Shown one piece after another: positions 1 to 15,062 of a DNA stretch of 35,872 nucleotides; position 1 is the stretch's first letter; each line of letters begins with the position of its first letter. The position numbers and the translations under genes are program-made. The notes below the pieces were generated by a model. That model was not told where the DNA came from and ran no database searches. It worked only from the letters and a program-made list of their open reading frames with translations. Source of the DNA: Akkermansia muciniphila (GTDB lineage: Bacteria > Verrucomicrobiota > Verrucomicrobiia > Verrucomicrobiales > Akkermansiaceae); the NCBI GenBank assembly GCA_945888515.1, contig CAMDAD010000030.1, positions 1-35,872 on the forward strand, in the 5' to 3' direction.

Positions 1-120
1 AATTATGAATTATGAATTATGAATTATGAATTATGAATTATGAATTATGAATTATGAATTATGAATTATGAATTATGAATTATGAATTATGAATTATGAA
101 TTATGAATTATGAATTATGA
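1..120. repeat. Heptamer tandem array (AATTATG)17
   Basis: Seventeen uninterrupted perfect copies of AATTATG plus one base run from the first base of the window, so the array may extend further left. On the minus strand it reads CATAATT, and its TCATAA supplies the stop codon of the RhuM gene. Because 7 is not a multiple of 3, all three frames are closed within about 21 bases on both strands. It is the longest and cleanest array here and should be prone to slippage. A window starting exactly inside it could also reflect a contig break. Confidence 0.97.
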
Positions 121-1155
121 GTTTTTTTGTATACGCTTGATGGCTTTATCGAAGTCCGAATCCAATTTCTGCTTTTTATTGAATTTTTCGTATTCGATGG
201 CGGCTTTTTGATCGGCTTGCTCGCGGGTGATGGTTCCGAACCCTTGAAGGACTTTGTATTCGTTGAACTCAAGGAATTTGTTCACGGAGGCGGCGAATTG
301 CTCCATGGTGAAAGTATTGCGTCGCTCGATGATGCCCTCAATGTAATCGAAAAACGCAGTGACAGTGCGCTCTAATTTTCCGATTTCTGTCTCGCTCAGG
401 TAGTTTTTGCCAATGAGGGCGTCTGATTTGAGAACGCGACCGGCAGGGGCATTTTTGTAGGTTTGCATGCCCATGAGTGGTTGTTTTGCATCCGCGTTTT
501 CGTAGATGATTTCTGCGGAGGTTTTACCAGTGATGGCAAAGTGGAATTTATCTTGAACGTGGGCGTAGAACTCGCGGGTGGTTTTTGCCTTGGGATCGTA
601 GTCGATGCTGCACTCGGCAAAAATGTCGGTGATTTGCTGATAAATACGGCGTTCGCTGGCACGGATGGAGCGGACGCGCTCGAGTAGCTCGCGGAAGTAA
701 TCTTTGCCGAAATAGCGGCCATTTTTGAGACGATCATCATCCATGGCGAAGCCTTTGATGATGTATTCCCGGATGAGCTGGGTCGCCCAGATACGAAATT
801 GGGTGGCCTTGGCAGAATTGACGCGGTAGCCGACGGAAATGACGGCATCGAGGTTGTAGTATTTGACGGCTTGCGTTTGCGTTTTGCCTTCCATGGCACC
901 GTGAGGAGTGGTGAGTTCCAAAATGGAACATACCACTTTTTCTTCGAGTTCCCCGGAATCAAAGATGTTTTTGAGATGCTTGGTGATGGCGGGGCGCTGG
1001 ACGCCGAAAAGTTCCGCCATACGCGGCTGTGTCAGCCACAGCGTCTCCTCGCTAAGAAAGACTTCCACCTTCGTCTCGCCATTGGGAGCGGTGTACAGCA
1101 GAAATTCCGTGCTCGCACCACTCGGCTTGAGCTTCTTTATCTCATCTTCTTTCAT
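115..1155 (-). CDS. RhuM family protein (virulence RhuM / DNA-binding)
   Basis: This 346-residue protein matches the RhuM family (Virulence_RhuM). That family is common in mobile and defence islands and is named after a Salmonella pathogenicity-island gene; its biochemical role is not known. The N-terminal part carries the family hallmark WLTQPRMAELFGVQ (about residues 40-53) followed by ITKHLKNI, which looks like a helix-turn-helix. The next conserved block includes YNLDAVISVGYRVNS, FRIWATQ and IIKGFAMDDDRLKN. Length is normal for the family. The start ATG is the last ATG of the heptamer array at 1153-1180 and the stop TAA comes from the array at 1-120, so the gene is framed exactly by the two arrays. 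It follows the methyltransferase gene on the same strand and may be cotranscribed with it. Family assignment is firm; a role in defence is inference from location. Confidence 0.9.
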   Translation of the reverse strand: MKEDEIKKLKPSGASTEFLLYTAPNGETKVEVFLSEETLWLTQPRMAELFGVQRPAITKHLKNIFDSGELEEKVVCSILELTTPHGAMEGKTQTQAVKYYNLDAVISVGYRVNSAKATQFRIWATQLIREYIIKGFAMDDDRLKNGRYFGKDYFRELLERVRSIRASERRIYQQITDIFAECSIDYDPKAKTTREFYAHVQDKFHFAITGKTSAEIIYENADAKQPLMGMQTYKNAPAGRVLKSDALIGKNYLSETEIGKLERTVTAFFDYIEGIIERRNTFTMEQFAASVNKFLEFNEYKVLQGFGTITREQADQKAAIEYEKFNKKQKLDSDFDKAIKRIQKNS

Positions 1156-1180
1156 AATTCATAATTCATCCTTCATCCTT
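1153..1180. repeat. Heptamer array between Mod and RhuM (4 units)
   Basis: On the minus strand this reads AAGGATG, AAGGATG, AATTATG, AATTATG. The methyltransferase stop TAA (1179-1181) touches its outer edge, and the last ATG (1153-1155) is the RhuM start. A five-codon minigene (MNYEL then TGA) begins at the ATG at 1167-1169, and its stop overlaps the RhuM start as ATGA. Its orientation is opposite to the array at 1-120. Confidence 0.95.
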
Positions 1181-3185
1181 AAATAAACTCCACGGTGTAG
1201 GCAGCTCCGAGGTCGCCGTGGTGTTTGTGGATCTCTGCCTTGAGGCGGCGGAAGGTTTCGTCCTTGAGAGCGATGTCCTTGCCGAAGGCGGAGTCGCGGA
1301 AGAAGTATTTGTTCGGCGTGGGCTCGATGGCGGCCAGCGCTTCCACGAGTTTCTGGGTGATTTTCTCCTCCAGGCAAATGAGATAGGCGTCCGCGTAAAG
1401 GTAGGTGCGCTGGGCGGTGGCGATGGGATGGGTAATGGTGCCCGTGAGGGGGATGTTTGATTGTCGGAGCATCAGTTCATAGACCACGTCGGTGTCCGTA
1501 TAGCCGGGCACGAAGTCGAGGGCGTCTTGGGTACTGAGGCCAGCTTCCGCAATGATGTCCTCGCCGCGTAGGTCTTTCTTGAGCCAGTTGATCTTGGTGT
1601 CTTCGATGCGAAAGGATTTGAAACCAATGTCGAGGGAGTTTGGGTCGATGATGTAGGGATTCGGGGCTTTCTCAGATTCTTCGTCATCTTTGATTTCGAG
1701 CTTTCCGCCTTTTTTGGTTTCGATAGCCTGTTGCTTCTGCCACTCAACGTGTTTTGCTTGCAGCTCTTCTTTGATTTTTTCCCCTGCACGGCGGATGCGT
1801 TCTTTGCTGATCTCGGAGATGGTTTTGTAACCGGCTTTGGCAGCATCGGAATCCTCTGCGCAAATTTCAGGGAGTTGCACCATGATGAACCGACGAGTCC
1901 CGCCATCCTGGGCGTTGAGTTGCATGACGGCGTGTGCTGTCGTTGCTGAGCCGGAGAAGAAGTCGAGAACGAGATCGTTTTCGATGGTCGCAAGTTTTAA
2001 AATTCTTTCTAACAACCTAACTGGTTTAGGTGTGTCGAAAGTGGCCGTTTCAGGAAACAGTGCATTCAGTTCTTTTTTGCCTTCTTGATTATGGCCGACA
2101 TCCGTGTATTTCCAAATTGTCTGACAGGCTGTCCCTTGCTTTACTTCTGTTAGAAAGCGTTTTACTGCTGGCACGTTATTGCCGGTTTCACCGAACCAAA
2201 TTCGGTTATCTTCGACCATTTTCTGATAGACGGGTTCCGTGTAAACCCAGCAACGACCATTTGGCAATTTGTGAGATTTGCCGTTCGGCGCGGCTACAGT
2301 GTAGAATTGGCTTTGTGTTCCATGTCCAGCTTGGGCAGTGGCGTCAGCTGGCTTCCATGGCCCTCTGGGGTCATTATCTAAATTTCTATACCGTGCGTTC
2401 ATTTCGTCAGAACGCTCCAGTAAATTCGGATACCAGTTTAGTTTCTCTTTCGCGTATATGAGTATAAAATCATGTGCTTCAGAAAACCATTTCACAGCAT
2501 TCTGTGGGCTGTATCTCTTTTCCCAAGCGATTGTGCTTACGAAATTATTTTCTCCAAATACATCATCGCACACCTGCCTTAGGTTAGCGACTTCATTGTC
2601 ATCGATAGATATAAAGATTACCCCGTCTTCACTCAGCAATTCTTTTGCTATTTTGATTCTTGGGTAGATCATATCAAGCCAGCGTGCGTGAAATCTGTTA
2701 GAAGATCGCTCATTTTTCGAAAACCGTTCGCCTTCCGATGATACTGAACCTTCTGCTTGTTCGCTCTCCTCACTTTTCGTGGTGAAGTTGTCCTTGTAAA
2801 CAAAGTCCTTGCCTGTGTTGTACGGTGGATCGATGTAAATCATCTTCACTTCCCCATAGTAGTTTTGACGAAGGAGTTTCAGGGCTTCGAGATTGTCGCC
2901 TTCTATGTAGATATTCTGTGATGTCTCGCTGTTCTTGCCGTCGTCCTTGAGAGAGAGTGTTTTCCCCAAGAGTGGTTTGAATGCTTCCTTTTTCGCCGCC
3001 TGTTTCCCGACCCAGTTGAGTTCGTAGGTTTCGTCACCAGGTTTGATTTCCTCGAATTCACCGAGTTCGGCGCGTAGCGCTTCCAAGTCAAGCGCGCCGT
3101 CCTTCACGGCGGCGGGAAAAAGTTCGGCGAGTTTGGCGAGGTTTTCCGAGATGGGATCGGAGATTTGTTGTGGGACGCGGGTCAT
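1179..3185 (-). CDS. Type III Mod-like site-specific DNA methyltransferase (beta-class N6-adenine/N4-cytosine)
   Basis: This 668-residue protein is an S-adenosylmethionine-dependent DNA amino-methyltransferase, modifying adenine N6 or cytosine N4 at a specific site. The catalytic motif IV, DPPYNTGKDF, is at residues 119-128. The AdoMet-binding motif I, DFFSGSATT, is at about 408-416. Motif IV before motif I is the beta-class order used by type III Mod subunits. The region between them (about 200-390) would hold target recognition. Length is typical for Mod. In type III systems Mod pairs with a Res helicase-nuclease; here the next gene downstream is RhuM and no Res gene is in the window. The start ATG (3183-3185) sits at the edge of the duplicated heptamer array. 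No long upstream alternative start was seen. Confidence 0.93.
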   Translation of the reverse strand: MTRVPQQISDPISENLAKLAELFPAAVKDGALDLEALRAELGEFEEIKPGDETYELNWVGKQAAKKEAFKPLLGKTLSLKDDGKNSETSQNIYIEGDNLEALKLLRQNYYGEVKMIYIDPPYNTGKDFVYKDNFTTKSEESEQAEGSVSSEGERFSKNERSSNRFHARWLDMIYPRIKIAKELLSEDGVIFISIDDNEVANLRQVCDDVFGENNFVSTIAWEKRYSPQNAVKWFSEAHDFILIYAKEKLNWYPNLLERSDEMNARYRNLDNDPRGPWKPADATAQAGHGTQSQFYTVAAPNGKSHKLPNGRCWVYTEPVYQKMVEDNRIWFGETGNNVPAVKRFLTEVKQGTACQTIWKYTDVGHNQEGKKELNALFPETATFDTPKPVRLLERILKLATIENDLVLDFFSGSATTAHAVMQLNAQDGGTRRFIMVQLPEICAEDSDAAKAGYKTISEISKERIRRAGEKIKEELQAKHVEWQKQQAIETKKGGKLEIKDDEESEKAPNPYIIDPNSLDIGFKSFRIEDTKINWLKKDLRGEDIIAEAGLSTQDALDFVPGYTDTDVVYELMLRQSNIPLTGTITHPIATAQRTYLYADAYLICLEEKITQKLVEALAAIEPTPNKYFFRDSAFGKDIALKDETFRRLKAEIHKHHGDLGAAYTVEFI

Positions 3186-3267
3186 GAAATTATGAAGTAT
3201 GAGTTATGAATTATGAAAAAAGAAGAGAGAGATGAAATTATGAAGTATGAGTTATGAATTATGAAAA
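3184..3267. repeat. Duplicated heptamer array: two perfect 36-bp direct repeats
   Basis: A 36-base block of ATTATGA-type heptamers (with variants AAGTATG and AGTTATG) occurs at 3184-3219 and is repeated without change at 3232-3267. The two copies are separated by a 12-base AAGAAGAGAGAG spacer. The array lies between the methyltransferase start and the four-helix stop. Bases 3185-3215 match the reverse complement of 3678-3648 at 29 of 31 positions, so it forms an inverted pair with the array at 3641-3675. Confidence 0.95.
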
Positions 3268-3277
3268 GAAGACAAGA

Positions 3278-3643
3278 TTAGAGGCTTTGTTTGGTTTTTT
3301 TGGAGATGGTGGTAAGGATGGCGAGGAGCTGGTTGGTTTCGTCTTGGAGGGATGCGAGTTTGGTGGGTGGAACGATGCCGGATTCTGTGAGGAGTTCTAG
3401 CCAATAAGACGTTTCGTCGAGTTCTTTTAGGCAATCGCCAAGTTTGGCAATGAACTCAGCCTTGGAGCGTGAGCGGTGAGCCTCGCGGTAATTCGCACCG
3501 ACAGAAGTTCCTGAGCGCAGCACTTGTTTTCCAAGAACCCGGGCCTCGTCCGTTTTTGGCAAAGCGACAAACATCCGCACAATCCGCAGCCCAAACAGCT
3601 TCGTCCTCTCGCGCAGATCATGTGGTGGCTCATCTTCATTCAT
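3278..3643 (-). CDS. Four-helix-bundle protein (S23 / TIGR02436-like)
   Basis: This 121-residue protein belongs to the small four-helix-bundle family related to the proteins encoded by 23S rRNA intervening sequences and to Avd of diversity-generating retroelements. Known members are basic helical bundles; some are suspected to bind nucleic acid, but the general function is unknown. Diagnostic blocks are LRERTKLFGLRIVRMF near the N-terminus, VLGKQVLRSGTSVGANYREA (about residues 38-57) and a C-terminal ELDETSYWLELL helix (about 74-85). The start ATG (3641-3643) overlaps the TGA of a five-codon minigene (MNYEV) in the upstream array, and that minigene's ATG in turn overlaps the VapC stop. Translation is therefore probably coupled to VapC. 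The stop is the gene's own TAA. Confidence 0.9.
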   Translation of the reverse strand: MNEDEPPHDLRERTKLFGLRIVRMFVALPKTDEARVLGKQVLRSGTSVGANYREAHRSRSKAEFIAKLGDCLKELDETSYWLELLTESGIVPPTKLASLQDETNQLLAILTTISKKTKQSL

Positions 3644-3675
3644 ACTTCATAATTCATAATTCATAATTCATAATT
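3641..3675. repeat. Heptamer array between VapC and the four-helix gene (5 units)
   Basis: On the minus strand it reads four copies of AATTATG followed by AAGTATG. It encodes the last residues of VapC (MNYEL and its TGA at 3654-3656), then one relay minigene (ATG at 3655-3657, MNYEV, TGA), then the four-helix start ATG (3641-3643). All three junctions are ATGA overlaps. Orientation is opposite to 3184-3267. Confidence 0.95.
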
Positions 3676-4082
3676 TCAGAAAATGGGTTGATGACGCGGA
3701 CGGTGTTGTAGTTTTGTCCGGGATTGAGGTCTTCGGAGAGGAGTTCGGTGCAGCCAGAGGACGCGGCGGCGGCGAGGATGGCGGCGTCCCAGTAGGAGGT
3801 TTGGTAGCGGTTTTTGATGTCGAGGGCATCCTGCATGACCTGCACGGTGAGCGGGACGATGCGGTGACGCAGCCAGTATTGGATCAGCGCGGTTGCCTCT
3901 TGGTGGGTTAGAGGATCGGTGCGTGTGGGGCGCGTGGCCTGGACGTAGAATTCCTGGAGCACCTGCACCGAGAGCGTGAGGTCGGGGTTTCTCAGGATCG
4001 CTTTGGCCTTTTGGTTTTTTTCCGCCTCACCGGGTTGGGTGGAGATGGCGTAGAGGAGGATGTTGGTATCGACGAAGGTCAT
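3654..4082 (-). CDS. PIN-domain ribonuclease toxin (VapC-like)
   Basis: This 142-residue protein is a PIN-domain endoribonuclease of the VapC type, expected to cut RNA with bound Mg2+ or Mn2+. The acidic residues that form the active site are visible: D5 (FVDTN), E44 (LQEFY), D99 (YWDAAI) and D118 (SEDL). The order and spacing are those of VapC proteins. The start ATG directly follows the TAA of the antitoxin gene with no spacer, so the two are translationally coupled. The last residues (MNYEL) are encoded by the heptamer array and are unlikely to be part of the ancestral fold; the natural end was probably near INPF. No active-site residue is missing. Confidence 0.9.
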   Translation of the reverse strand: MTFVDTNILLYAISTQPGEAEKNQKAKAILRNPDLTLSVQVLQEFYVQATRPTRTDPLTHQEATALIQYWLRHRIVPLTVQVMQDALDIKNRYQTSYWDAAILAAAASSGCTELLSEDLNPGQNYNTVRVINPFSEIMNYEL

Positions 4083-4331
4083 TTAGCGGCGGCTTTCGTA
4101 AAGGGCTTCGCGGGACAGGTTGTCCTGGCAGGAGAAGTTGGGGTGACGGCTGGCGATTTCCGCGAGCAGGCTTTCCAACTCAGGGGCGGGCTTTTCCGGT
4201 GCCACTTCCGTGGCCGCGAGGGTCTGGAGGTATTGCTTTACAAGGGATGATACGGAGGCATCCCGCCTCGCGGCGGCAATACGAGCCATGCGGTAGGTCT
4301 CCTCATCCAAGGCGAGTGTGATGTTTTTCAT
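4083..4331 (-). CDS. Ribbon-helix-helix antitoxin (VapB-like)
   Basis: This 82-residue protein looks like the antitoxin partner of the adjacent PIN toxin. Residues 1-40 have the pattern of a ribbon-helix-helix DNA-binding domain: a beta strand (MKNITLALDEE), then helix (TYRMARIAAARR), turn (DASVS) and helix (SLVKQYLQTL). The acidic and flexible C-terminal half (about 45-82) would wrap the toxin. It is the first gene of the pair and its TAA abuts the toxin ATG. Such antitoxins usually repress their own promoter, and an imperfect inverted repeat lies just upstream (4339-4365). Confidence 0.82.
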   Translation of the reverse strand: MKNITLALDEETYRMARIAAARRDASVSSLVKQYLQTLAATEVAPEKPAPELESLLAEIASRHPNFSCQDNLSREALYESRR

Positions 4332-4338
4332 GGGTTTA

Positions 4339-4365
4339 TGTGTATCACGGTTTCACAGTAACACA
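4339..4365 (-). promoter_or_regulatory. Imperfect inverted repeat upstream of vapB-like gene; possible autoregulatory operator
   Basis: TGTGTATCAC and an imperfect complement ending in AACACA flank a short spacer 8 to 34 bases upstream of the antitoxin start. The position suits the self-repression typical of ribbon-helix-helix antitoxins. Symmetry is incomplete and no strong promoter boxes were identified, so this is tentative. Confidence 0.28.
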
Positions 4366-4368
4366 AGA

Positions 4369-4403
4369 AATTATGAAGGATGAATGATGAATGATGAATG
4401 ATG
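4369..4403. repeat. Heptamer array upstream of the vapBC-like pair (5 units)
   Basis: On the plus strand it reads AATTATG, AAGGATG, then three copies of AATGATG. Bases 4376-4405 match the reverse complement of 4528-4499 at 27 of 30 positions, so it forms an inverted pair with the array at 4494-4528 around a 90-base non-coding core. The AATGATG variant is found only here and is repeated three times, which suggests that units copy within an array. Confidence 0.95.
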
Positions 4404-4443
4404 AAAATAGAGCCAAGAAGAGGAGGATTTTGGGCTTATTTCC

Positions 4444-4477
4444 GTAAAATAGGTAAAACGTGTTTTGCTTATTTTAC
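4444..4477. other. 34-bp near-perfect palindrome
   Basis: GTAAAATA at 4444-4451 pairs with TATTTTAC at 4470-4477, and the inner bases continue to pair (two G-T wobbles in RNA) almost to the centre at 4460/4461. It could be a terminator stem without a following T-run, a dimeric repressor site, or a structural end signal of the enclosing element. The choice cannot be made from sequence alone. Confidence 0.85.
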
Positions 4478-4493
4478 TCAATTCGCTGGAGTT

Positions 4494-4528
4494 CATAATT
4501 CATAATTCATAATTCATAATTCATCCTT
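4494..4528. repeat. Heptamer array at the 3' end of the DUF4391 gene (5 units)
   Basis: On the minus strand it reads AAGGATG followed by four copies of AATTATG. It encodes the C-terminal MNYEL and the TGA (4507-4509) of the DUF4391 protein. Its orientation is opposite to the array at 4369-4403. Confidence 0.95.
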
Positions 4529-5220
4529 ATCTTCTCGATGGTAGTTTTGATGGAGGTATTGAGCGCGGCTTTGTCAGCGAGTGAGCGGGCGCGGTCCTTC
4601 TTGGCCTTGAGGGATTCCAGCTCAGTGAGGGCCCGAAACAGGGCGAGGATGGTAGGGCCGTGAAACCAGAGCTTGGCATCGAAAAGCTGGACGGCACCGA
4701 TGAAGATCTTCGGGTGATCAAGCAGGAAGGCTTTGGCCATGGCCTCTAGGTAGTGATCGCGTTTGTTAAGGCGATTCAGGAGGGATGACTGGCGGAGTGG
4801 AGCCAGCGCGGCAGTGCTCACGTGGACCTCGGTGCAGTGCGCATCGGCGATGACGATGGCGCTATCGTCGAGGAGATTGAGCCTCTTGTGGGCGAACGAG
4901 AGGGCGAATCGATCGCCGCCTTCATGAAAGCGAATGACTGCGTGTGCCTTGATCTGGGGCTGGATGGTGCGGGCGGCGAAGTCCGCCTGGCGAAGGTCGG
5001 TGAGTTCGATGTCGAGGAAGAGAATGGCTTCGCAGCGGTATTCGTCCGTGATGAGTGACGGGATTTCCGGGCTGGTCAGCTGGTGGGTGAGTGTGGCCTT
5101 GCGGAGAATTTTGCGCAGGCGACTGCGCTGCGCGGTGGGCAGTGTGGCGGGAGTGAAGGATTTGAGGTTGAGGCGCTTGCCGTTGGTTTCGACGCGCCAG
5201 CTATCGGGAAGATCGATCAT
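4507..5220 (-). CDS. DUF4391 domain-containing protein
   Basis: This 237-residue protein resembles the DUF4391 family, whose genes are usually found beside helicase and DNA methyltransferase genes in restriction-like loci. No enzymatic motif is visible and its function is unknown. The recognisable region runs from about residue 10 to 150 and includes EYRCEAILFLDIEL and the block around IKAHAVIRFHEGGDRFAL. The C-terminal third (about 195-232) is charged and predicted helical (LTELESLKAKKDRARSLADK). Its ATG overlaps the stop of the upstream helicase gene as ATGA, so the two are coupled and probably form one complex. The last five residues, MNYEL, come from the heptamer array. Confidence 0.8.
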   Translation of the reverse strand: MIDLPDSWRVETNGKRLNLKSFTPATLPTAQRSRLRKILRKATLTHQLTSPEIPSLITDEYRCEAILFLDIELTDLRQADFAARTIQPQIKAHAVIRFHEGGDRFALSFAHKRLNLLDDSAIVIADAHCTEVHVSTAALAPLRQSSLLNRLNKRDHYLEAMAKAFLLDHPKIFIGAVQLFDAKLWFHGPTILALFRALTELESLKAKKDRARSLADKAALNTSIKTTIEKIRMNYEL

Positions 5221-8200
5221 GGGCGGAGAACGAGGAGGGAGATGAGTTCGAAGTCGTCGATGTCCTGGCCAGCAAAGGGGTTATCGTAGCCGCCGAAGTC
5301 GAAGACGGAGGATTCGGATTGGGCGGCTTCGTGACCTTGGATCGATTGGATGGCTTGGTTGAGCAGGCTGGAGCAGGCGGACATGTCCTTGCAGTGCTTG
5401 GTTTCCGCAAGGAAGCTGCGGACAAGTGGCTCGATGGGAACGTTTTGGCCTCGGGTGGCGCGGCGCATGAACTTGAGCAGTTCGCGTGCTTGACCCTTGC
5501 CGATGGCCGCGGAGCCTTCGTCTGAGACATAGACGAGGTAGTAGGGATAGAGAGAGCTGTCGCTTTTGGGTTTTTGATCGAGGTTACGGTGCTTGAAGCA
5601 GAAGAGGATGCCGTGTTTGCGGTCGGAGTCTTCTGGTGCGTGGGTGATGGAGTAAATACCGCTGGGGGTTTGGCGGATTTCCGGTGTGTGTTTCAGGTAT
5701 TCGCCGAGCTCATGAAGGTAATCGTTCATGTTGAGGTCGGTGAGCGAAATGTTTTCGTTGGCGTCTTCCAACTCGATGACTTCGTCCTTGAGACGGGCGA
5801 GCTGGCGGGAGCGGAACGAGATGTCGTTCATCTCCGGGCTGAGGTCGTCTTCGCCGCCGGTGGCTGTTATGTTAACGCCGATCATTTTGCTTTTCACCCG
5901 CTTTTCAAGGCTGAGGTATTCGTTGAGGGCAAGGTCCGGGAAGAAATTGACCATCTTGATCTGGGTATTGGTAGAGCCAATGCGGTCGATGCGCCCGAAG
6001 CGCTGGATGAGTGTGACGGGGTTCCACTGGACGTCGTAATTGATCACGCAGTCGCAGTCCTGGAGGTTCTGGCCTTCCGAGATACAGTCGGTGCCGATGA
6101 GGATGTCGACTTGTTCGCCGGAGGGCAGTTCGCGGCGGAGTTTGGAACGTGGGGAGAATGCGGAGAGAACGTTGTGGAAGGTGGGGATGATTTTTGGATT
6201 GTTCACCCGTGGGGTATCAGAGCCGTAAATGAGGGCAGTGGTGAGGCCTTGTGAGGTTTTGAGGTCATCGGCCAGTTGTTGGTAGAGATAGATGGCGGTA
6301 TCGGCGAAGGCGGAAAAGATCAGGATTTTACGGTTGCCGTGGTTGTAGGGCGTGGCAGCGACTTTTTCGGTGATAAGTCCGCGCAGAGTATGGAGCTTGT
6401 GGTCGCGCTTTCCATCGAGAATGGCCTTGGCATCGGCGATGATGCCGGTGAGAAGATGGCGGTCGGCATTGAGGTCGTTCAGATATTCATCGACCAGCAA
6501 GTGAGAGACTTTGATGTCGTATTTGTAGTCGAGCCCAGGCGCGTCTTCTTCGGGGTTTTCTCTGTATTCCGCACTGATTTCGCCGTCTTGGGTTTCGAGA
6601 GCTTTGATGAAAGCGTCGATTTTTACGGTAAGGCGTTGCAGCGTGAGATGGAATGCGGCGACGGAACTGTCCAAGCGCTTGAACAGGTTGAAGCGGTGCA
6701 TTTTCGCGGTTTGGAATTCGCGGTCTTCGTGACTGAAGATGACCTTGTCGTTATAGGTGGTCTGGTATTTTTCCCGATAGTAGGCGCGGTATTCCGGCTT
6801 GATGTACTTCATGGGAATGTAGACCGCGAGAATCAGCTCTTCGAGCCGGAGATTCGTGGTTTTGAAGTCGAGCAGCTCGTGGCGGGAGTCGATGTAGGGT
6901 GTGTAGGTGTCAGGCTTGAGTTTGGTGGGGAATGGGCCTACGTCAGAGGCGGAGTAGTGCTCCGTGATGTGCTTGCGGCTGCGGGAGATGGTGAGGAGTT
7001 CAAGGATTTTATAGAAATCCGAGGGGATGGCATCCAATAGCTCGGCTTTGTTTTTTTCTTCGCTGTCGTTCCAGGTGTTGATGGCACGGGTGGTGCGCTG
7101 GAGGGTGTTCTGAACACTGGGGATGCCCTCCTTCTCGAAGGCGGCGTCGTTGTCGGCCGTGATGATGCTGATCTGGTTGCGGAGGTCGACGAGCGAGTTG
7201 TTGACGGGGGTAGCTGATAGCAGAAGCACCTTGGTATTCTGGCTTTGCTGAATGACTTCTGAGAGTAGGCGCTGGTAGCGGGTGAAGCCTTCCTCCTTTT
7301 CGACCCGGTTGCGGAAATTGTGGGATTCATCGATGACAACCAAGTCGAACTTACCCCAATCGAAGCGGGAGAGGTCGAAGCCACTGCGCGAGTCTCCCCG
7401 CGTGCGGGAAAGGTCGGTATGGAACATGATCTTGTAATGGAAGGTCTCATTGAGCGTGCTGTCCTTATAGGCACCACGGAACGAATTCCAGTTGTCGTAG
7501 AGTTTGGCTGGAGTGAGGACGAGAACGTTGTCCTGGCGTAGCTCGAAGTATTTGATCACGGCCAGGGCCTCGAAGGTTTTTCCCAGTCCGACGCTGTCGG
7601 CGATGATGCAGCCGTTGTATTTGTTGATTTTCTGGATGGCGGAAAGAACGCAGTCTTTCTGGAAATCGTAGAGCATGTTCCAGATGGCTGTTTTTTTGAA
7701 ATGTAGCGCGTCTTGCTCAAAGCGGGCGACCCCTAGGTCAAGCTGGTGGCCGAAGAGCTCGTTGAGGGTGAAGTAGTAGAGGAACTCGGGCGAGTGCTCC
7801 TTGTAGAGTGCCTGGAGGCGTTGGAGGATCTGTTCCTTGTAGTCGAAAGCGAGGTCCGGGTTGTTCCAGATCATGTCGAATTTCGCACGAGCTGCCTCGA
7901 TCTGAGCCTTGTCCATCGACTCACTGATGATGCTATCGAAATTGATGCTGCGGTGTGAACTCCTGACCTCTGTGGCAAGTTCCAGGGAAGATGAACCCTG
8001 GATCATGAATTCCGCGTCAACAAGGAGTATGTTGCCCTTGATCGTGCATTTCGGGGTGGTGCGGCGGATGTCCACGTGGGAGCGGATGAAGTCCGCCATC
8101 TGCCGAGCCTGTTCGAAGTGCTGGAGCTTATTTTTCTGGGTGATGTCGTAGGTGTTGAAGAGGGCGTCGTTGGGATTGATCTCAAATTCGCGGGCAAGTT

Positions 8201-8384
8201 CGCCGACGGGAAGAAAGACCTCCTTGTCCCGGAGGAGTAGGTGAATTGCCCCTACGCGCTCCAAGCTAGACTCCAGCAGAGTAAAAACGGAGAGCGTCAG
8301 CTTGTCGTTGATGATGTTGACCGCGGATCCAGTCTCGTTCTTATGGAGGTTTTCGCGTAATTTTTCGAGGAGGGCGGTTTCCAT
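5217..8384 (-). CDS. SF2/SNF2-type DNA helicase with PLD-like N-terminal region
   Basis: This protein is about 1,055 residues long if started at METALLEK, with ATG at 8382-8384. An upstream ATG at 8463-8465 is in frame, but the extra 27 residues look non-conserved. The order is: an N-terminal region with a degenerate phospholipase-D-like segment (GSSSLEL near residue 130, where nuclease members have GSSNxT); a DExx helicase core with Walker A SVGLGKT (about 264-270), Walker B DESH (352-355) and SATP (390-393); a long insertion; and a C-terminal helicase lobe with GTDCISEGQNLQ and QRFGRIDRIGS (about 765-804). This is the architecture of PLD-type helicases in bacterial defence loci. The PLD motif lacks a clear HxK, so nuclease activity is doubtful. 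Likely role: ATP-driven DNA translocation with DUF4391 and Mod. The stop overlaps the DUF4391 start. Confidence 0.9.
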   Translation of the reverse strand: METALLEKLRENLHKNETGSAVNIINDKLTLSVFTLLESSLERVGAIHLLLRDKEVFLPVGELAREFEINPNDALFNTYDITQKNKLQHFEQARQMADFIRSHVDIRRTTPKCTIKGNILLVDAEFMIQGSSSLELATEVRSSHRSINFDSIISESMDKAQIEAARAKFDMIWNNPDLAFDYKEQILQRLQALYKEHSPEFLYYFTLNELFGHQLDLGVARFEQDALHFKKTAIWNMLYDFQKDCVLSAIQKINKYNGCIIADSVGLGKTFEALAVIKYFELRQDNVLVLTPAKLYDNWNSFRGAYKDSTLNETFHYKIMFHTDLSRTRGDSRSGFDLSRFDWGKFDLVVIDESHNFRNRVEKEEGFTRYQRLLSEVIQQSQNTKVLLLSATPVNNSLVDLRNQISIITADNDAAFEKEGIPSVQNTLQRTTRAINTWNDSEEKNKAELLDAIPSDFYKILELLTISRSRKHITEHYSASDVGPFPTKLKPDTYTPYIDSRHELLDFKTTNLRLEELILAVYIPMKYIKPEYRAYYREKYQTTYNDKVIFSHEDREFQTAKMHRFNLFKRLDSSVAAFHLTLQRLTVKIDAFIKALETQDGEISAEYRENPEEDAPGLDYKYDIKVSHLLVDEYLNDLNADRHLLTGIIADAKAILDGKRDHKLHTLRGLITEKVAATPYNHGNRKILIFSAFADTAIYLYQQLADDLKTSQGLTTALIYGSDTPRVNNPKIIPTFHNVLSAFSPRSKLRRELPSGEQVDILIGTDCISEGQNLQDCDCVINYDVQWNPVTLIQRFGRIDRIGSTNTQIKMVNFFPDLALNEYLSLEKRVKSKMIGVNITATGGEDDLSPEMNDISFRSRQLARLKDEVIELEDANENISLTDLNMNDYLHELGEYLKHTPEIRQTPSGIYSITHAPEDSDRKHGILFCFKHRNLDQKPKSDSSLYPYYLVYVSDEGSAAIGKGQARELLKFMRRATRGQNVPIEPLVRSFLAETKHCKDMSACSSLLNQAIQSIQGHEAAQSESSVFDFGGYDNPFAGQDIDDFELISLLVLRP

Positions 8385-8422
8385 AGGTAAGATACGTAAA
8401 GTAAGTTGACGGAATCGACAAA

Positions 8423-8451
8423 AATAAATCAGAAAATGAATTGGTAAGCAA
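8423..8451 (-). promoter_or_regulatory. Possible sigma70-like promoter of the helicase-DUF4391 operon
   Basis: On the minus strand TTGCTT (8446-8451) and TTTATT (8423-8428) are separated by 17 bases and lie about 40 bases upstream of the chosen helicase start. The match is modest (3/6 and 4/6). The region is more AT-rich than the genes on either side. Confidence 0.28.
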
Positions 8452-8562
8452 GACAGATATCCCATGTTGGGAGTCTAAGTGGACGGTATTCTTTTTCTCG
8501 CAAAGGTCGGAACTCTCAGCGCTGGATAACTTGCGGTGATTCTTTCATTTCGGCCGTGAGGC

Positions 8563-10578
8563 TTACTGCTTTTTAACGGACTGCAGGTAGTGCCAGATCG
8601 CGTTGAACTGATCGGCGGCGTTTCCATTGAGCGCGGGGTTCGGTGATTCGCCGCCGGGGGCGTATTGGGGCATTTTGGTGCCGGGGGTGACGCTGGCGGG
8701 GTTGTCCATCCAGCGATCATACCACTCGCGGCGCAGGCGTCCGCCGATGTGCTCTAGGTAGAGCCCCTGCACCTCAAAGGCGGCCGTGGGCGGGGTCTTT
8801 TCGAGGCCGTGGCATGTGGTGCAGCCGAAGCCTTTTTCCGCGGAGATCAGGTCCTTGCCGATGGCGACCAGGGCGGGATCGCTGGCGTGGGTGGTTTTTT
8901 CCTCGGGATCGATGCCGTGGAGTCGTGCGAAGCCATCGCTGAGCGAGGCGGCATGGGCACTGTAGGCGGGCATGCGCATGTCGAGCCAGGGGCGGGGCTT
9001 GGTGGTGAGGCTGCCGCTGATGATGCTCTGCATGAATTTCGTTTGCAGCATCTCGCCGATGAAGGTCAAGTGCGGGCGGGATTGATCGAGCTTTTCGTTC
9101 GCTCCGGCGATGTGTGCGGTGAGCGATTGTGTTTCCGCATGGGTGCTGTCGAGCAAGGCGGGCAGGCCATCGCGCGAGTGGCAGGCATCGCATCGCAGTG
9201 AGTGGAATTTCCGATCGGCGGCCTCGGCTTTATCGTTATGGCTCAGCGACTGACTGCCGGTTTTGGCGAAGGCGACGAGGGCGAGTCTGTCGTTTTCCGA
9301 TAGATGGTGAACAGGCGCGGCACCGCGTTTTTCCGCAGGGGCGACGCAGCCCTTTGCCTCCCAATCAGCGGTGAAAATTTTCTGCAAGCTGGAGACCGTG
9401 AGTTTTTCCGGGGTGGGCAGACCGGCGTGGCAATAGAAACAATGATGCGCGGCGGCGACGGATTTGCCGCGTGCGGCATCGCCCTTGAGCTCGGTTTGCG
9501 CGGGCAGGGGAGCCTTTGCCTTGGCAGTGAGAAACGCGCTCAGGCCTTTGATTTCCTCATCGCTGAGCTGGAAGTCCGGCATGCCACGGTGGGGGGCGTA
9601 GGCGTTGGGGCTTTTGAGGAAGGCGGCGAGGGCACCGGGCTTGAACTTCGCGGCGACGTGGTGAAGGGGGATGCGTTTGTTTTCGAGATCGGGCTTTTCC
9701 TGATCGGGTCCGCTGTGGCAGGCGGCGCAGCCGAGTTTGTGGAAATGGGCACCTCCGGCGAGAATCGTGGCTTCATCCGCAGCGGCTGCGGCGGCCTCGG
9801 TGCCGGATTGCATCGAGCTGAGAAAGGCCGCGAGGTCCGCGACTTGTTGGGCGCTTTCAGGATTTTTCGGATCAAACAATTGCGGCATGGTGGTGCCCGG
9901 GCGCAGGGTGTGCGGTTCGCTGAGCCAGGCGCGCAGCCAGGGTTCCTTCAATCGGTCGCCGGGATTGACCAGCAGCGGGGCGATTTCCTGCATTTCCTGC
10001 ATGGGATCCGCGCCGAGTGGTGACTCGCTTTGGTGGCACTTGGCGCAGTGTTGCGTGGCGAAAAGTTCGCGGCCACGGCGTTGCTGCAAGGAAATGGTAG
10101 CCTCGGGAGTGGGCGCGCTGACGAAGGCGGTGGGAGGAACACTTTGACGGGGGAAATCCTTTTCCTCCCAGAACAAGCGGAAGTGCGCCGCGCCATCCGG
10201 GCGGCTTTTGTAGGTGATGACGATGTCGTGTTCGCCGGGATTGATGCGGCTTTGGGCGGAGCGAGCGGTGCCGAGCTTTCCGGTTTCGACAAGAAGTTCC
10301 TCGCCATCGAGAGTCAGCTTCGCCTCGCCTTCGCCCTCGAAGGAAAAGATCAGCCGCTGGCGTTTGGCGATTTTGAGTTTGCCGGTCCAGGTGGTTTCGA
10401 AGGGCCCAGGAGCCAGAAAGGCGCTGGGGGTTTCGCCGGATTTCAGCCACAGGGCGGGCAGTCGGTCCAGTCGGGTGTCGGTTTTTCCGTTGGACTGAAA
10501 GGTGGCGATGAGTTGCGCTTGGCAGGCGAGGCTGCTGCCGAGGATGAGAATCGCTTGTGTGAGAGTGCGGAGCGGCAT
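8563..10578 (-). CDS. Secreted PA14-domain pentahaem cytochrome c
   Basis: This 671-residue exported protein has a Sec signal peptide (about residues 1-21, ending ACQA), then a PA14-like beta domain (about 25-145) recognisable from DGEELLVETG, INPGEHDIVITY and AHFRLFWEE. Five class I-type haem sites follow: CAKCH (178), CAACH (284), CFYCH (380), CDACH (463) and CTTCH (586). Candidate axial methionines occur in TTMPQ, GMPDF, RMPAY and TKMPQ. PA14 domains usually bind carbohydrate, and PA14-cytochrome fusions are typical of Planctomycetota and Verrucomicrobiota. A role in periplasmic electron transfer linked to sugar oxidation is plausible but not shown. It is transcribed away from pheS, and no redox partner gene is adjacent. 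Confidence 0.9.
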   Translation of the reverse strand: MPLRTLTQAILILGSSLACQAQLIATFQSNGKTDTRLDRLPALWLKSGETPSAFLAPGPFETTWTGKLKIAKRQRLIFSFEGEGEAKLTLDGEELLVETGKLGTARSAQSRINPGEHDIVITYKSRPDGAAHFRLFWEEKDFPRQSVPPTAFVSAPTPEATISLQQRRGRELFATQHCAKCHQSESPLGADPMQEMQEIAPLLVNPGDRLKEPWLRAWLSEPHTLRPGTTMPQLFDPKNPESAQQVADLAAFLSSMQSGTEAAAAAADEATILAGGAHFHKLGCAACHSGPDQEKPDLENKRIPLHHVAAKFKPGALAAFLKSPNAYAPHRGMPDFQLSDEEIKGLSAFLTAKAKAPLPAQTELKGDAARGKSVAAAHHCFYCHAGLPTPEKLTVSSLQKIFTADWEAKGCVAPAEKRGAAPVHHLSENDRLALVAFAKTGSQSLSHNDKAEAADRKFHSLRCDACHSRDGLPALLDSTHAETQSLTAHIAGANEKLDQSRPHLTFIGEMLQTKFMQSIISGSLTTKPRPWLDMRMPAYSAHAASLSDGFARLHGIDPEEKTTHASDPALVAIGKDLISAEKGFGCTTCHGLEKTPPTAAFEVQGLYLEHIGGRLRREWYDRWMDNPASVTPGTKMPQYAPGGESPNPALNGNAADQFNAIWHYLQSVKKQ

Positions 10579-15030: not shown

Positions 15031-15062
15031 ACAAAAAAGCGGTGGCAACATCGCTTTTTTGT
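15031..15062. terminator. Second, bidirectional terminator hairpin
   Basis: A perfect 11-bp stem ACAAAAAAGCG / CGCTTTTTTGT encloses a 10-base loop. On the plus strand TTTTTG continues after it. Because of the A/T runs at the base of the stem it can also serve the minus-strand gene ending at 15194. The remaining sequence to 15193 shows no gene or recognisable site. Confidence 0.75.

Follow-up and report, generated by a model that had tools for sequence, protein, structure and literature searches.

Tandem repeats of seven bases between genes, and inverted repeats around a short core, have been described from several bacteria. The GGGAATC heptamers of Xanthomonas are intergenic and lie near the upstream gene, and the accessible portion of their description counts 70 convergent pairs in one species and 75 in a second; the pairs keep stable places and are generally not found with mobile elements (PMC4692102). 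The 23S rRNA of Coxiella contains an intervening sequence with a terminal inverted-repeat stem, an S23 ORF and GACAGAT tandem heptamers before that ORF; according to the available part of the same source, RNase III cleaves the stem of such intervening sequences (PMC4990558). TAACTGA heptamers are reported, in the accessible text, from Beggiatoaceae, cyanobacteria and some Bacteroidetes, where they stand next to start codons (PMC4679880), and strains of Porphyromonas gingivalis harbor the BrickBuilt MITE, which in the portion available carries a 23-nt tandem unit between a leader and a tail (PMC4596501).

The element described here resembles these systems in part. On balance, we lean toward regarding it, a stretch of 90 bases with a heptamer array at either end, as the gene-less form of a type of cassette that is bounded by heptamer arrays and carries a PF05635 gene, and that now constitutes the upstream region of a vapBC pair. 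The window, that is, the whole stretch of 35,872 nucleotides that was analyzed, is contig C30 of a genome of 3.36 Mb, and begins with a type III restriction operon, called an anti-phage operon, on the minus strand. The gene order runs from an SNF2-type helicase (5217-8465) and a DUF4391 gene (4507-5220), both part of the host operon, through the 90-base core (4404-4493), a vapB-like antitoxin gene (DUF6364; 4083-4331), vapC (PIN domain; 3654-4082) and a four-helix 23S_rRNA_IVP gene (PF05635; 3278-3643) to the type III methyltransferase gene Mod (1179-3185) and a RhuM gene (PF13310; 115-1155), all on the minus strand. The array that opens the window also closes contig C2 of this genome, where it lies directly upstream of a 1017-aa type III Res gene, and Res therefore probably follows RhuM. 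The break between the two contigs falls inside this array (window 1-120; L047 4186-4302), with the Res gene at the C2 end.

Heptamer arrays stand at all junctions of the operon except helicase/DUF4391 and vapB/vapC. Their polarity alternates without exception, from array F on the plus strand (1-120, cut by the contig start) through E on the minus (1152-1176), D on the plus (3192-3264), C on the minus (3640-3671) and B on the plus (4373-4404) to A on the minus strand (4493-4524). The six arrays pair up to face inward on RhuM, on the four-helix gene and on the 90-base core, so that the third inverted pair named in an earlier, sequence-only reading of this DNA is indeed the third, the first running off the contig. 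Array B consists of ATGAAGG and ATGAATG units (the ATGANNN type); array A, with TTCATAA units, encodes the C-terminus MNYEL of DUF4391, and vapC has an array-encoded MNYEL C-terminus as well. The left end AAGGATGAA is common to array A and to array E, the left end of the RhuM cassette, and the right end TTCATAATTTC is common to arrays B and D; array C forms the left end of the four-helix cassette. The core thus has a left end like that of the RhuM cassette and a right end like that of the four-helix cassette, both facing inward, and no gene between them, which is what leads us to a gene-less cassette. It has the inverted tandem heptamers at both ends that mark the proposed class of heptamer-bounded PF05635 cassettes and is without the PF05635 gene, which is why we would call it a gene-less form. 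The differing units of arms A and B count against a cassette. RhuM and the four-helix gene, which encode unrelated proteins, have near-identical first 15 bases right after their arrays, ATGAAAGAAGATGAG and ATGAATGAAGATGAG (window 1141-1155 and 3629-3643).

As in Xanthomonas, the units here are tandem heptamers, convergent and intergenic, and the core element works like one of the convergent heptamer pairs of that genus. We do not class it as one because the G-rich, quadruplex-prone GGGAATC unit is absent; the units here are ATGAATT/ATGAATG. Nor are there many genome-wide copies of the Xanthomonas kind, exact three-unit arrays being confined in this genome to contig C30 and the end of C2. The available part of the Xanthomonas report describes no gene cargo or moved cassette, and the stable places of the pairs there count against our arrays being cassette ends (PMC4692102). 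The TAACTGA repeats are likewise intergenic heptamers by start codons with a patchy distribution across phyla, but in the accessible text they are almost only direct, have one fixed unit and are proposed as sites of translational control (PMC4679880). BrickBuilt, also intergenic and composed of tandem and inverted repeats, differs in its 23-nt unit and small inverted-repeat ends in the portion described (PMC4596501). Among the features of MITEs, terminal inverted repeats are present at our locus in the form of the inward arrays, whereas the core is a single copy in its genome and its class shows no clear target site duplication. REP and REPIN sequences with their RAYT transposases are made of short inverted pairs around a variable core, with palindromic tagged units; the inverted pairs around a core are alike, but here they are heptamer arrays and no RAYT is linked to them. 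The intervening sequence of Coxiella, as described in the accessible part of its account, is similar in that terminal inverted repeats form a stem here too, by predicted folding. That sequence sits in 23S rRNA, whereas the present element lies between the protein genes DUF4391 and vapB, and its S23/IVP ORF has no counterpart in the 90-base core, though the neighboring cassette has one. Some 23S rRNA intervening sequences lack an S23/IVP ORF as well. A literature search under several spellings of the present heptamer unit found no occurrence of it, most subscription papers lying outside the search.

The history of the operon can be followed in two other genomes. Among 132 further genomes of close relatives, one (G050, 78% identity) has a relative of DUF4391, and in the phylum sample one of 386 others does (G434, 48%). 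The operon of G434 is bare: behind a helicase gene truncated at the end of the contig come DUF4391, Mod and Res, with junctions of 10 and 14 nt. It lacks ATGANNN-type arrays, and nothing in it matches VapB, VapC, the four-helix protein or RhuM. G050, in contrast, has array A, the core, array B and vapBC placed as in the window, and array A starts at the same codon with TTCATCC in place of TTCATAA units. G050 has nothing at vapC/Mod and the four-helix cassette at Mod/Res; the window has that cassette at vapC/Mod and RhuM at Mod/Res. The slot contents hence differ between the two operons, such that one slot has held different cassettes and one cassette different slots. In the window and in G050 alike, the four-helix gene is followed by units in the irregular order TTCATAACTCATACTTCAT, and since this order travels with the gene we assign array D to the cassette. 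The array D region (window 3188-3265) is duplicated with a 48-base step, like two cassette ends side by side. Because the more distant operon is bare, we infer from these comparisons that cassettes were inserted rather than lost. The absence of an array on the 3' side of vapBC in G050, which blurs the outer limits of the insertion, counts against a cassette. In viral contigs, eight relatives of RhuM were found, none with ATGANNN-type arrays in the available flanking DNA, and RhuM is therefore not generally a cassette gene; no relative of the window's four-helix protein was confirmed in viral contigs.

The sequence-only reading had seen no plausible gene within the 90 bases, and we agree: no ORF of at least 60 aa among those listed for the window overlaps 4404-4493, and while two of the six frames are free of stops over the 90 bases, 30 residues without a family are no gene. 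The palindrome at 4444-4477 of the plus strand does pair nearly to its center, as had been claimed, with pairs at 17 of 17 positions (14 Watson-Crick and three G-T on the plus strand) and a score of 10, above the maximum of 9 seen when the 90-mer was shuffled 500 times with its dinucleotides preserved. It ranks second among the inverted repeats of the 35.9-kb window; the strongest, ACAAAAAAGCGGTGGCAACATCGCTTTTTTGT at 15031-15062, looks terminator-like. The 40-nt hairpin has a folding energy of -13.4 kcal/mol as plus-strand RNA (z -5.3, equalled by none of 200 shuffles), the fold of the whole core being more modest (z -2.5 for the 90-mer, -2.2 for its inner 86 bases). On the gene strand the hairpin is weak (-4.8, z -1.2), since the G-T pairs turn into A-C mismatches. 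The location between two coding blocks would suit an intrinsic terminator of the DUF4391/helicase message, which the same reading had offered as an alternative, but the stem is A+T-rich, weak on the gene strand and not followed by a T run, and no terminator-like site was found; we consider a terminator extremely improbable.

Comparison with G050 shows where the core has been kept. A block outside the palindrome, TTTTGGGCTTATT (4428-4440), is identical at 13 of 13 positions and the inner dyad of the palindrome (4449-4472) at 22 of 24, whereas the outer arms of the palindrome agree at 3/5 and 1/5 positions and the remaining core at 7/23 and 6/14, a map drawn from two sequences, as one relative alone carries the core. 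The G050 core (L192, around 3560-3640) is longer by about 70 bases toward array A, where a motif like ACACGAAGA is repeated. The hairpin fold is lost in G050 (z -0.6 versus -3.5 for the matching stretch of the window). We tentatively read the conserved sequence, thin as a comparison of two sequences is, as DNA-binding half-sites rather than as an RNA hairpin, and the retention of the inner dyad in this one close relative suggests a regulatory DNA site. The outer arms may have another origin. It is possible, though we find it doubtful, that the palindrome is mutational, a quasi-palindrome made near-perfect by template-switch correction and without a function of its own. The conserved inner dyad, outer arms that are perfect in the window only, and the absence of the hairpin from G050 are what such a process would leave behind; the comparison involves two sequences only, however, and a loss in G050 is just as possible.

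Other copies of the core were sought in several collections. No second copy was found in the genome, which counts against a cassette, and none of nine genus mates gave a match below E 0.1; the further array-flanked copies that might have been expected did not appear. Plasmids, phages and viral contigs gave no match to the core or to the inner dyad, and no Rfam match was obtained in positions 1-9000 of the window.

With vapB downstream of the element, a plain regulatory region has to be considered, in which the core and its palindrome are the promoter/operator region of vapBC and the arrays are simple repeats grown by slippage. Polymerase slippage has indeed been proposed for changes in heptamer repeats, in the accessible part of the TAACTGA report (PMC4679880), and two conserved blocks within otherwise unconstrained DNA upstream of vapB are what one would expect of such a region. 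Relatives of vapB at E of at most 1e-6 occur in 11 of the 387 phylum genomes, the window's own included, and provided 11 copies outside the window, from 10 genomes, whose upstream regions could be compared. None of the 11 has arrays upstream, and the inner dyad is absent from all, with 8 to 12 of its 22 bases off; two have an unrelated upstream inverted repeat of similar strength. In nine of the 11, by contrast, a TGTG motif ([AC]TGTG[AC]) lies within 80 bases of the vapB start. The window has this motif at 4340-4364 on the minus strand, within a stretch (4336-4369) that agrees with G050 at 33 of 34 bases, and on these alignments 4340-4364 is a likelier candidate than the core palindrome for VapB autoregulation; the core palindrome is probably not the VapB operator. 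The repressor site that the sequence-only reading had proposed for the palindrome is thus better placed at 4340-4364, though the inner dyad, conserved in G050, may still be bound by a regulator, and its conservation upstream of related vapBC pairs extends to G050 and to none of the 11 distant relatives. No sigma-70-like promoter was found on the gene strand in the window or in G050, the strict alternation of six arrays and the array ends common to unrelated cassettes are not what slippage would produce, and the arrays are missing from the bare operon of G434. A core beside vapBC without arrays, the finding that would have spoken for a regulatory region and nothing more, was not seen; in G050 the core again lies between arrays. 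We therefore hold a plain regulatory region to be unlikely.

Pairs of arrays facing one another around short cores are not peculiar to this locus. A scan for facing ATTATGA arrays around 41-101 bases in a genome collection of 84,980 species found at least 120 stretches, mostly from Bacteroidota among the 80 loci listed. Fifteen genomes yielded 188 inward matches, with overlapping phases included, and no outward ones; these genomes had been picked for having an inward pair, and the inward figure is therefore too high by at least 15. Array pairs facing inward on a short core form a real, polarized class. One Parabacteroides contig of 400 kb has 13 arrays that make up six inward pairs and one lone array, and 800 kb of a second Parabacteroides species have 19 arrays, just four close inward pairs and no close pair in another orientation; many arrays there are hence unpaired, which counts against a cassette. 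Viral contigs gave one inward pair and no outward one, numbers too small to weigh. The mini-elements sit tightly between ORFs, and in a same-phylum genome, G400 (L049, L053), ATTATGA arrays adjoin arrays of a second heptamer, TGAATGC. In the window's own clade the array type is rare, again counting against a cassette: end-anchored three-unit arrays occur in three of 387 phylum genomes, and exact inverted mini pairs in none of 145 family genomes, by a pattern that also misses the window's own pair.

The cores of this class vary by genome. They are long, near-perfect hairpins of differing sequence in Chitinophaga solisilvae (L055, L073, L090, L116, L124), where at L116 the palindrome extends at least 25 bases beyond the arrays; in Parabacteroides they are unlike one another and of like length, and Parabacteroides PF5-6 (G544) has several mini-elements whose arms are near-identical and whose cores, about 22 bases each, vary in sequence and hardly in length. 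A Rikenellaceae genome has one core family dispersed at many sites. When 14 Parabacteroides elements were tested against a second species, both flanks were matched for three, of which one element is cleanly absent, one has a different, unrelated core between the same arms and one a different 7-base array. Dispersed families and a site of presence and absence would fit a MITE-like unit that is non-autonomous and still mobile, its arrays recognized in trans and its hairpin core acting as folded single-stranded DNA, and 15 of the 80 listed cores are strongly structured (z below -3), five of them from one genome. The window core reaches -2.2 in that analysis, its hairpin is not kept in G050, and it is a single copy. 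No clear target duplication was seen in the 80 listed mini-elements, which counts against a cassette too: identical flanks of 2-3 bases are not above shuffles, 4 bases occur in four of the 80 versus about one, 5 bases in one and 6-8 bases in none. Y1/RAYT transposases are absent from four of 11 array-rich genomes, and of 30 Y1 loci one has a lone array and none a pair of arrays. Continued mobility of the window's element is on these grounds very unlikely. The miniature element with array ends that the sequence-only reading had proposed is a fair description, then, in that the class exists, with no sign of current movement here, and a structured core is the mark of a minority of the class. A RAYT (Y1) enzyme as the mobilizer of the cassettes was rejected on the same counts.

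The four-helix gene provides a second line of comparison. Of 15 array-rich genomes 13 have PF05635, of 14 control genomes none, and 30 loci of the 62 matches in array-rich genomes were analyzed, of which 28 could be scored for inverted matches and 26 for a 7-base lag; default coordinates stood in at two loci that lacked a called ORF, and background genes came from a simple ORF rule. A first search with a degenerate array pattern found arrays near four of the 30 genes. With exact 14-base runs, six of 30 are enclosed by inward ATTATGA arrays and two have them on one side, versus two enclosed among 1369 background genes, one of which is itself among the six. With the unit left free, the two flanks share an exact inverted match of 11 nt or more at 21 of 28 PF05635 genes versus seven of 250 background genes; the best lag of these 21 matches is 7 in 18, 8 in two and none in one, and their units have many different sequences. 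A lag-7 excess is found on either flank at 13 of 26 (background 39/400) and on both flanks at six of 26 (background 2/400). The core of the window has a lag-7 match of 14/14 at both flanks, with an exact inverted match of merely 10 nt since its array units differ.

A sample that had not been chosen for arrays, plasmid-borne relatives of the window's four-helix protein (16 of 26 records; gene limits taken from the match at L350, which has no annotated gene, and at L345), gave the same picture. A lag-7 tandem repeat lies within 150 nt of 14 of the 16 genes, on both sides in 10, versus none of 119 control genes from three of the same plasmids (p 3e-17), and an inverted match of at least 11 nt is present at 13 of 16 versus three of 119 controls, all three transposase genes. 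Several of the plasmid genes are annotated inside defense operons (helicase/N6-methylase, DUF1156/Swt1-HEPN twice, DrmD/PglX, HsdS/HsdR, cas2/cas1 twice), and others lie outside. On two cyanobacterial plasmids (L344, L347) the four-helix gene lies amid co-directional cas2 and cas1, on the opposite strand. PF05635 genes are thus usually bordered by inverted heptamer arrays, in which the unit varies and the period stays 7. The literature search found nothing on this link beyond the note on Coxiella (PMC4990558), most subscription papers again lying outside it.

The name of the PF05635 family, taken from 23S intervening sequences, points to a further possibility, in which arrays A and B pair in the mRNA and RNase III cuts the stem, separating the helicase-DUF4391 message from that of vapBC-Mod. 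Folded on the gene strand, the whole element of the window has a z of -5.0 and that of G050 one of -2.95, although their array A units differ, and none of 200 shuffles equalled either fold; the four-helix cassette folds at z -4.6 (0 of 100 shuffles), and the listed mini-elements lie between co-directional ORFs in 49 of the 65 cases in which both neighbors were called. Nevertheless, any inverted array pair folds in this manner, the strict inward polarity is left unexplained and the proposal is one of predicted folding; we regard a processing site as quite unlikely.

We thus return to the gene-less cassette and to how it may have come about. The 90 bases would be the interior of an insertion bounded by two inward heptamer arrays, with the same build as the four-helix and RhuM cassettes of the operon and as the widespread mini-elements. 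This insertion would have entered the DUF4391/Mod junction of a bare helicase-DUF4391-Mod-Res operon, with or beside vapBC, either before the split from G050 or in a decorated operon that both lineages acquired. The arrays would later have changed unit and length in 7-base steps, and the core would now be the 5' region of vapBC. The conserved 13-bp block and the 24-bp dyad, in which three ATAAGC-like half-sites can be discerned by eye, would most simply be a site on the DNA to which a protein binds; the palindrome's outer arms, near-perfect in their pairing, would be a feature of the lineage, perhaps from template switching. A more ambitious proposal would have PF05635 genes travel as heptamer-ended cassettes, free in unit and fixed in period, that insert between the genes of operons, often of defense; these cassettes would be tolerated because RNase III, as it does in 23S rRNA, removes the paired arrays from the message, gene-less derivatives such as the 90-base element would arise from them, and the mobilizing machinery would read the period of 7 and not the sequence. 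Taken as a whole, that proposal is a speculative one and has little chance of being right.

To our knowledge, standalone PF05635 ("four helix bundle") genes are widespread yet unexplained, and the same may be said of intergenic heptamer repeats. A kind of cassette bounded by heptamer arrays has been little noticed until now. The link between PF05635 and heptamers joins these two open puzzles and makes both testable. It further suggests a way in which restriction operons and other defense operons may gain accessory genes at the junctions between their genes, bare and decorated versions of one operon being open to comparison base by base.
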